Part shown: positions 9,855 through 14,997 of the stretch, one piece after another | Numbering within the stretch: position 1 is the stretch's first letter | Layout: each line of letters begins with the position of its first letter | Assembly (NCBI GenBank): GCA_951828385.1 | Contig: OX639973.1 | Location: 3,153,200-3,217,199, forward strand | DNA length: 64,000 nt | Reading direction: 5' to 3' | Origin: an uncultured Poribacteria bacterium | GTDB lineage: Bacteria; Poribacteria; WGA-4E; WGA-3G | Position numbers and translations under genes: made by a program | The notes under the pieces: model-generated | What the model was told of the DNA's origin: nothing | What the model saw: the letters and a program-made list of their open reading frames with translations, nothing else | Database searches by the model: none

Positions 9855-9884
9855 TTGAAACAGAGTTGAAAAATGTGGTATACT
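9855..9884 (+). promoter_or_regulatory. Sigma-70-type promoter for the HEPN operon
   Basis: TTGAAA (9855-9860), an 18-base spacer and TATACT (9879-9884) preceded by TGG (extended -10). The start codon is 19 bases downstream. The AAAATGTGGTAT segment recurs in the promoter ahead of tnpB (30240-30251). Confidence 0.6.
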
Positions 9885-9902
9885 TCCTAATGAGGTTAGG
9901 TG

Positions 9903-10346
9903 ATGAATCATGATTTACATGATAGTATAGGGGAGCAAGCCAGGGCCAGTCATCAACGCTTGGAAGATGCGAAAGTCCTTTTAAGAGCTTCTCGGTGGCG
10001 CGGAGCAATGTACATTGCTGGTTATGCTGTGGAATGTCTTTTGAAAACGAAATTGATGCAAATCTACGATTGTAAAAATTTGCGGGAACTTGAGGATGTC
10101 CTTCAGAAACGTTCCGTACTTCCTATAGGCAGCACGATTTTTACGCATCAGTTAGAGACATTATTTAAACTCACACCAAGTTATCAACGTCTACAACAAA
10201 ACCAGCATGTATTATCTTTGTTCAATGTCGTTAACCGCTGGGCTCCAAAATGGCGTTACGTCTCAAAGCGCGCAACTCGTGATGAAGCTTCCTTTTTCAT
10301 GAGTGCTGTCGAACAAATTATGCATTGGATAAATAATAATATGTAG
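9903..10346 (+). CDS. HEPN-domain protein
   Basis: 147 residues, mostly helical, with the HEPN signature GYAVECLLKTKLM after a helix of the YIAGYA type and the C-terminal RWAPKWRYVSKRATRDEASFFMSAVEQIMHWI stretch typical of one HEPN branch. HEPN proteins are often RNases of toxin-antitoxin or defence systems and dimerise. An R-x5-H arrangement is present (R96, H102), which fits the R-x4-6-H rule but may be chance because it lies before the usual final helix. The usual partner, a MNT nucleotidyltransferase, is absent; instead a BolA-like gene follows after 14 bases. The ATG at 9903 is preferred to GTG 9900 because GAGG at 9892-9895 is correctly spaced. Toxin function is inference. Confidence 0.75.
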   Translation: MNHDLHDSIGEQARASHQRLEDAKVLLRASRWRGAMYIAGYAVECLLKTKLMQIYDCKNLRELEDVLQKRSVLPIGSTIFTHQLETLFKLTPSYQRLQQNQHVLSLFNVVNRWAPKWRYVSKRATRDEASFFMSAVEQIMHWINNNM

Positions 10347-10360
10347 CAGAGGAATTACAC

Positions 10361-10624
10361 ATGGCATCAAAAAAATTAAAGCAAAAAATTTATGATTCGC
10401 TTAAATCTGGATATTTCAGTGAAACAACTGACCTTGTTGATGTCTCCGACGGTTTTGACGATCTTGTCCATGTTGTTATTGTGAGTCGAAAATTTGATGG
10501 AAAACTTGCACGCGAAAGACATGATCTGATCTGGTCGGAATTGACAAAGCAACTTTCAAACGAAGAATGGGCACATGTGTCTCTATCTATCGGTGCAAGC
10601 CCAGAGGAAATTAAAACCTTATAG
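10361..10624 (+). CDS. Small BolA-like protein paired with HEPN gene
   Basis: 87 residues. The core HVVIVSRKFDGKLARERHDLIW, followed after a loop by AHVSLSIGASPEEIKTL, follows the BolA pattern (VVS..F.GK...RH.L, then a strand and a TPEE-like end). BolA proteins bind nucleic acid or, with glutaredoxins, iron-sulfur clusters. Here no glutaredoxin is near, and the gene is tightly coupled to the upstream HEPN gene (14-base gap, own AGAGGA site at 10348-10353). It may be the antidote or a regulator of the HEPN protein, or an RNA-binding cofactor. The fold assignment rests on motif reading only. The segment NEEWAHVSLS replaces the usual IHALSL. Confidence 0.6.
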   Translation: MASKKLKQKIYDSLKSGYFSETTDLVDVSDGFDDLVHVVIVSRKFDGKLARERHDLIWSELTKQLSNEEWAHVSLSIGASPEEIKTL

Positions 10625-13275: not shown

Positions 13276-14997
13276 ATGAACAAACTCTACTTCGGCGATA
13301 ACCTCGAAATCCTACGCGAACTCGACGACGCACGCGTCCACCTGATATGCACCGACCCTCCCTTCAACTCCGGACGCGACTACAACGCCTTCATCGGTGA
13401 TTCCCTCGCACAGAAGAAAGCGTTTACCGATACATGGACGTGGGACACCGCCGCACAAGATACTCGCGCCGACATCGAACACCGCGCCTACACCAGCGAT
13501 ACCTACAAAGCATTGGACAACTGCCTCAAGGGATATGACTTAGTACTCCAAAACGCCGTCTCCGGTAACAGTGGCGCGATGCGTGCCTATCTCGGTTTCA
13601 TGGGACCCCGACTCGCCGAGATGCACCGAATCCTCACACCGACTGGCAGCATCTATCTTCACTGCGATCCGACTGCAAGCCACTATCTTAAAGGCGTGCT
13701 GGACGCTATTTTTGGCGTAGACAACTTCAGGAACGAGATTATCTGGCAACGCACCAACGCACATAACGACGGCAAACAGTACGGCAGAGTCCACGACACA
13801 ATCCTATTCTATAGCAAAAGCCGGAAAACAGTATGGAACCCTGTGTATACAGCGCATGATCCAGAGTATATAAGAAAATTTTATCGCCATCAGGACGAAA
13901 GGGGCCCCTACCAGATTGCCTCCCTGAATGCCCCCGGGATTAGACACGGTGAATCCGGTCAACCGTGGCGAGATATAAATCCGAGCGAGGTAGGTAGACA
14001 TTGGAGTACACCGCGCAGAGAAGCATGGCCCGAAGACATCCACCCTCCGGAAAACTATGAATCCCTCTCAGTTCACCAAAGATTAGATATTTTAGACGCG
14101 AAAGGGTTGGTTTACTGGCCCCCAAAGGGCAACGTTCCAAGGTTCAAGCGGTATCTGTCTACCTCAAAGGGAAGTAGAGTACACGATCTTATTACAGATA
14201 TAAGTTCACTCGCAAGTGCTTCCAAAGAACGTCTCGGTTACCCGACACAAAAGCCGCTCGCGCTTTATGAACGCCTGATATCCGCCTCCAGCAACGAAGG
14301 CGACATCGTTCTTGATCCGTTCTCCGGTTGTGGCACGACGATTGATGCGGCACATACCCTCAAACGCCAATGGATGGGGATTGACATCACAATCCTCGCA
14401 CTCGATCCGATGCGACAGCGATTAGCAGACCGACACGGCTTGGAACCCTCAATAGACTATCAAATCGAAGGCTATCCGACGAACATGCAGGAAGTCCGAA
14501 AACTCTTGAAGGACGGCGATAAACGCAAATATCACGACTTCTCGAATTGGGCAGTAACACGACTCGGTTTGAACCCGACAAAAGATGTCGGCGATGGCGG
14601 ACTCGACGGTGTCGGACATGTGACGCTCTGGAATCCACAGCAGATGAAAGAGACAAACGCGCGCATCCTCGCCGAAGTCAAGACCGGCAAACCCACCATC
14701 ACGCAAGTCCGCGCCTTCTGCCACGTCATGGATCAGCACAATGCAGAAGTCGGCATCTTTATCACGATTGAACCCGTCTCCGCAAAAATGCGTCAGGAAG
14801 CGGAAAACATGGGGAGTTTCGAGCACAATCAGAAAAATTACCCACGCCTCCAATTCTGGCAACTCGACGACGCATACTTCGAGAACCCAGACAGCATCAA
14901 TACCCTCGTCCGCTTACCGGATGCGTGGCGCATCCGTCCCACCCAAAAATCAGAACGTCACTTCGACAACCGACAAATGCAACTCCTCCGCGGATGA
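13276..14997 (+). CDS. Beta-class DNA methyltransferase with C-terminal Mrr-like nuclease domain
   Basis: 573 residues. The catalytic motif IV TDPPF (26-30) lies before the AdoMet-binding motif DPFSGCGTT (347-355), the order of beta-class N6-adenine or N4-cytosine methyltransferases such as type III Mod and CcrM-like enzymes. The C-terminal 140 residues look like a PD-(D/E)xK nuclease of the Mrr type: VGDGGLDGVG (about 438-447), then LAEVKTG with E467 and K469, then GIFITIEPVSAKMRQEA. One chain could therefore both modify and cut DNA, or the nuclease-like part could serve only for DNA recognition. No separate restriction or specificity gene is adjacent. The ATG is the first in the frame, after a segment rich in the ACTGACAAC repeat. 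Methyltransferase assignment is strong; cleavage is inference. Confidence 0.8.
   Translation: MNKLYFGDNLEILRELDDARVHLICTDPPFNSGRDYNAFIGDSLAQKKAFTDTWTWDTAAQDTRADIEHRAYTSDTYKALDNCLKGYDLVLQNAVSGNSGAMRAYLGFMGPRLAEMHRILTPTGSIYLHCDPTASHYLKGVLDAIFGVDNFRNEIIWQRTNAHNDGKQYGRVHDTILFYSKSRKTVWNPVYTAHDPEYIRKFYRHQDERGPYQIASLNAPGIRHGESGQPWRDINPSEVGRHWSTPRREAWPEDIHPPENYESLSVHQRLDILDAKGLVYWPPKGNVPRFKRYLSTSKGSRVHDLITDISSLASASKERLGYPTQKPLALYERLISASSNEGDIVLDPFSGCGTTIDAAHTLKRQWMGIDITILALDPMRQRLADRHGLEPSIDYQIEGYPTNMQEVRKLLKDGDKRKYHDFSNWAVTRLGLNPTKDVGDGGLDGVGHVTLWNPQQMKETNARILAEVKTGKPTITQVRAFCHVMDQHNAEVGIFITIEPVSAKMRQEAENMGSFEHNQKNYPRLQFWQLDDAYFENPDSINTLVRLPDAWRIRPTQKSERHFDNRQMQLLRG

Follow-up and report, generated by a model that had tools for sequence, protein, structure and literature searches.

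An HEPN RNase as toxin and a non-enzymatic protein of the BolA fold as antitoxin is the reading proposed here for two small adjoining genes of an uncultured Poribacteria bacterium, and a toxin-antitoxin module of this kind is held to be somewhat probable. The genes lie in a stretch of 64,000 nucleotides that was analysed as a whole (the window), taken from a genome that consists of a single contig of 6.66 Mb. The product of the first gene would be a small HEPN protein, probably an RNA-cutting enzyme with an AF0298-type site (His82 with Arg118, and Glu44/Lys48), and that of the second a BolA-fold protein that would bind the HEPN protein and block it. Blocking would presumably occur without chemical modification, because the partner has no nucleotidyltransferase motif. 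The analysis shows that the genes are linked and conserved, that HEPN is lost one-sidedly, and which folds are predicted for the two proteins; RNase activity, toxicity and direct neutralisation are inferred. Few predicted toxin-antitoxin systems are as widespread as the HEPN modules, whose characterised antitoxin is an enzyme, the nucleotidyltransferase MNT, that modifies the toxin. If the proposal is true, a BolA-fold partner without MNT activity would represent a second way of controlling HEPN toxins, and the BolA-like family would be given a biological role in bacteria that have no recognisable BolA.

The two genes and their protein families

The preliminary description of this DNA reported an HEPN gene followed 14 bases downstream by a partner under one promoter, and each of these points was confirmed in the sequence, with all features on the forward strand. 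The only good promoter match upstream of both genes in a consensus scan is a predicted sigma-70-like promoter, TTGAAA-18-TATACT with TG before the -10 element (9855-9884); the same stretch is visible 5' of the HEPN start in several relatives at the same type of site (site A, below). A putative ribosome-binding site, GAGG (9892-9895), precedes the HEPN gene (9903-10346), which encodes 147 amino acids counted from ATG, with an alternative GTG start one codon 5'. From the HEPN stop codon TAG (10344-10346) a 14-base gap, holding a second putative ribosome-binding site (AGAGG, 10348-10352), leads to the ATG at 10361 of the BolA-like gene (10361-10624; 87 amino acids), the predicted antitoxin. Two small, co-directional and tightly linked genes are the layout of type II toxin-antitoxin systems, and relatives of the pair are arranged likewise. 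Many type II modules, however, have the antitoxin gene first; here the HEPN gene comes first, which counts against the toxin-antitoxin reading.

Assignment of the first protein to HEPN, as originally made, is upheld by both profile and fold. It scores 30.3 bits against Pfam PF05168, above the curated cut-off of 22, and an AF2 model built from 20 relatives (pLDDT 91) has as its first-ranked Foldseek match 2hsb, the HEPN protein AF0298 (E 2.5e-3, TM about 0.6), with the ten best matches all HEPN or HEPN-like, including 2hsb, 4nqf, 1wol and 1ufb. A search of PDB sequences with the HEPN protein returned nothing useful, so that the structural relatives came from the fold search. The catalytic motif first suggested fared less well: R96-x5-H102 is present in the window copy and only there, relatives having D, E, N or some other residue at position 102, so it was rejected as the active site and no conserved canonical Rx4-6H was found in the protein. 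The positions that are conserved are Glu44/Lys48, His82, Trp113 and Arg118-Tyr119. Glu44-x3-Lys48 (10032-10046) and Arg118-Tyr119 within W-x4-R-Y (10254-10259), the former an instance of the known HEPN motif Ex3[KR] (PMC3710099) and the latter supplying a candidate basic active-site residue, are invariant in 20 aligned HEPN proteins, and His82 of a T-H motif (10146-10148), the candidate alternative catalytic histidine, is at least 90% conserved. HEPN proteins of the AF0298 type keep the basic residue of Rx4-6H but lack its histidine, for which a different conserved histidine farther upstream may substitute (Anantharaman et al. 2013, PMC3710099); the conserved His82 upstream of the conserved basic Arg118 fits this description. 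RNase activity is plausible for the HEPN protein because its conserved residues match the AF0298-type arrangement.

The BolA-like protein alone falls below the curated Pfam cut-off for PF01722 (18.7 bits, E 0.0023, against 25.7), whereas 19 of 31 members of its family match Pfam BolA, 22 of 31 match NCBIfam BolA, and a search of PDB sequences with the family profile retrieves E. coli BolA at E 2.4e-5. An AF2 model (pLDDT 90) has BolA structures as all of its 16 best Foldseek matches and displays the alpha-beta-beta-alpha-alpha-beta order of the BolA fold, with a VIA Z score of 10.1 to BolA1 over 78 residues (rmsd 2.5). The BolA-like character read from the lone sequence in the preliminary description therefore holds by family profile and by fold, with the single-sequence Pfam match below threshold. 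BolA proteins bind an iron-sulfur cluster or metal through a conserved C-terminal histidine. His72 falls at that position or one residue before it, depending on the alignment, and it varies among relatives. A misplaced housekeeping BolA was considered and rejected, because none of 83 Poribacteria genomes contains a true BolA above the Pfam cut-off. Purifying selection is indicated for both genes by dN/dS values between relatives of 0.08-0.18 (HEPN, pairwise) and 0.02-0.13 (BolA-like, pairs where computable), values that partly reflect ancestry with both genes present.

Linkage, one-sided decay and spread

Among 85 Poribacteria genomes searched at a presence threshold of E 1e-3, 31 have the BolA-like gene and 23 the HEPN gene. 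Each of the 14 intact HEPN genes of the clade in these Poribacteria is followed directly by an intact BolA-like gene, and the pair is consistently linked; the preliminary description had named such linkage, together with the BolA-like identity of the partner, as a test of its idea. Two further HEPN matches of the clade (L061, L069) lie at the ends of contigs and are fragmentary or broken. The converse does not hold, in that just 12 of the 31 genomes carrying the BolA-like gene have an intact HEPN gene of the clade. At 39 loci, none of them at a contig edge, at least one BolA-like gene is intact in every case, whereas the HEPN gene is intact in 14, broken or a relic in 10 and absent in 15 (not intact in 25 of 39); these loci are related rather than independent, many come from metagenome-assembled genomes (MAGs), and one (L071) was moved to the HEPN-deleted class as its reading frame spans just 98 amino acids. 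HEPN genes have been damaged by stops, by frameshifts and by an internal deletion that keeps the reading frame, and some survive only as C-terminal relics lying 5' of the BolA-like gene. In one instance (L017; G076 compared with G080) about 470 bases have been cleanly deleted, which removed the HEPN gene and fused the promoter to the start of the BolA-like gene, and the BolA-like genes of the two genomes are identical across the compared codons.

Within one genus and its family the genes occur in two main settings. At site A, the type found in the window, a single BolA-like gene lies behind a gene that reads as a putative mandelate racemase-like gene, and at site B two or three BolA-like genes stand in tandem. 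The site A loci, counted with L019 despite its different upstream gene, number 10; all of them have an intact BolA-like gene, and 3 have an intact HEPN gene. The same asymmetry was seen in distant pairs (G085 C391 pair 1, G017 C103 and G005 C469), of which G017 C103 and G005 C469 have an intact partner and a broken HEPN gene. Five loci lacking the HEPN gene (L003, L030, L158, L159, L162) have in common a short sequence, CTACATACATTGGAA, directly 5' of the first BolA-like gene; an element that eliminated the HEPN gene when it inserted may end with this sequence.

Outside Poribacteria, a partner of the window's own class (class I) was found only in G085, a metagenome-assembled genome, among 395 Desulfobacterota genomes. 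There an intact pair, with 49% (HEPN) and 64% (BolA-like) identity to the window proteins, lies directly behind argH, and after it the final 183 bases of argH occur once more, in a copy that is 86% identical (L011, 2106-4468). This looks like an integrated cassette whose insertion duplicated the 3' end of argH and, together with the locus having its own flanks, speaks against contamination of G085 with Poribacteria DNA. G085 also carries two diverged pairs in tandem, and in one of these the HEPN gene is frameshifted. In other orders and classes of Poribacteria, diverged (class II) partners lie directly 3' of HEPN genes (four times in G015, and in G017 and G005), and they are homologous to class I by hhalign (97.9%). 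An origin from phage or plasmid was rejected, no relative of the BolA-like protein having been found among the viral contigs or plasmids searched.

One-sided decay of the HEPN gene is what would be expected of a costly toxin with a protective partner. The toxin-antitoxin reading first put forward is partly supported: BolA-like identity, linkage and decay fit, the catalytic motif offered with it was wrong, and an RNA-processing role, which had been named as the other option, may still apply. The orphan partners nevertheless exceed what a plain addiction module predicts, and this counts against the toxin-antitoxin reading. They suggest either anti-addiction, that is, protection against incoming copies, or a regulatory role acquired later; because the BolA-like protein is retained where no intact HEPN gene exists, action in trans or as a regulator is possible too.

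Alternative explanations and the origin of the partner

A dispensable HEPN gene beside a BolA-like protein with an important role of its own would yield the same picture of decay. On this explanation there would be no toxin-antitoxin pair at all: the BolA-like protein would serve the cell by binding nucleic acids or in regulation, with the HEPN protein as a dispensable accessory for RNA binding or processing. The many genomes in which BolA-like genes are intact, and duplicated to arrays of two or three, with no intact HEPN gene speak for it, as does their low dN/dS, which however partly reflects ancestry at a time when the HEPN gene still existed. Since an intact HEPN gene was never found without the partner, and the module occupies several genomic sites and has reached another phylum as an integrated cassette, this explanation is regarded as quite improbable. 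Far less probable again, and compatible with the toxin-antitoxin reading, is an anti-phage defence of the abortive-infection type in which the BolA-like protein would be both sensor and inhibitor. It draws on a match (E 5.6e-10) of the HEPN protein to PDC-M28A, a candidate-defence profile of PADLOC, on genes resembling Mrr_N or DUF4268, by reading of their sequence, that adjoin some homologous arrays, and on a DNA methylase-like protein with a putative Mrr-like restriction C-terminal part, likewise by reading, encoded 2.7 kb downstream in the window (13276-14997). Set against these are the metabolic-looking neighbours at site A, the want of relatives on viral contigs, and the second gene of PDC-M28, PDC-M28B (a profile of 438 positions), which is not the partner here.

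A further rival explanation concerns where a non-enzymatic antitoxin came from. The partner could descend from an MNT antitoxin through loss of the GS loop and the DxD motif, so that the pair would be an HEPN-MNT module with an antitoxin that became non-enzymatic, and the likeness to BolA a matter of convergence or deep homology; this is judged unlikely. The class II partner profile (A3) also retrieves MNT antitoxins that lie directly 3' of HEPN genes in Desulfobacterota, a profile of those MNTs in turn matches BolA structures weakly (E 0.0024), and this genome encodes six further proteins in which the same HEPN subtype is fused to an MNT that looks active. Over the C-terminal half of the partners the MNT score equals the BolA score (97.6% against 96.7%), a comparison in which both sets, MNT and BolA, were drawn by the partner profile and are not neutral samples, since such a choice favours a match. 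In unbiased libraries (PDB, Pfam, and NCBIfam for class I), on the other hand, partners match BolA and never MNT, while class II partners searched against NCBIfam matched neither BolA nor MNT. The BolA match extends over 72 columns and the MNT match over 45, the GS and DxD motifs are absent from all aligned partners, and the VIA fold comparison has no MNT among the 50 matches listed, a result with which MNT likeness is still compatible. Recruitment of a BolA protein is accordingly weighted about three times as heavily as decay of an MNT. A broader proposal, that HEPN toxins have an unrecognised superfamily of non-enzymatic BolA-fold antitoxins derived from MNT by loss of the loop or sharing ancestry with it, which would link BolA and MNT, is thought rather unlikely.

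Relation to known HEPN systems

The toxin-antitoxin reading brings the pair close to the type VII HEPN/MNT systems (HepT/MntA; PMC7641770, PMC11586414, PMC3710099), where a small HEPN protein that is a predicted RNase toxin is likewise encoded beside a small alpha/beta partner. The HEPN subtype with T-H and R-Y motifs is shared with MNT-linked HEPN proteins in Desulfobacterota and with the MNT-HEPN fusions of this genome. The partner here differs in having the BolA fold and no GS/DxD nucleotidyltransferase motif, so that AMPylation is not expected. From the BolA family (PF01722), with which it has in common the fold, the profile and an S-x-x-F-x-G...R core, the partner is set apart by its score below the Pfam cut-off, a ligand histidine that is not clearly kept, and linkage of its gene to HEPN. 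HEPN with a ParA/Soj-like ATPase (PMC3710099; Nostoc plasmid NZ_CP091916) is another known case in which a lone partner other than MNT follows the HEPN gene, though that partner is a large ATPase. The window's HEPN protein matches the HEPN component of PADLOC PDC-M28, PDC-M28A; membership in that system was rejected, as the neighbour does not match the second component. A search of open-licence papers gave none that describes HEPN and BolA as parts of the same system; as an antitoxin, the BolA-fold partner would be of a type not previously described for HEPN toxins.

Some further arrangements were observed around these genes. In Desulfobacterota (L095-L117), MNT antitoxins behind HEPN genes share with BolA a C-terminal core, VVISxxFxGK...ER...TPEEW, for which a deep relation or convergence is possible. 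The six MNT-HEPN fusions in the window's own genome (L163-L168) have largely kept GS...DxD-type and T-H/R-Y-type motifs. At L064, L076 and L079, HEPN genes of the same kind are followed by a small partner (class III) with a WDLVxSAxWL core and without an MNT motif, for which hhalign gives 43% against the BolA-like partners. A class IV partner (L078) gave no signal in comparison with the BolA-like partners. In Klebsiella phage Kp4864-1 (L157, 1459-2264) an HEPN gene overlaps a gene for a hypothetical protein of 134 amino acids that is like the class IV partner of L078. Of 5426 E. coli genomes, 189 have these two genes conserved as a pair, with a DNA identity of about 65% (for example NZ_CP101274, 1458658-1459454), and the E. 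coli pair is a tractable example of HEPN with a non-MNT partner.
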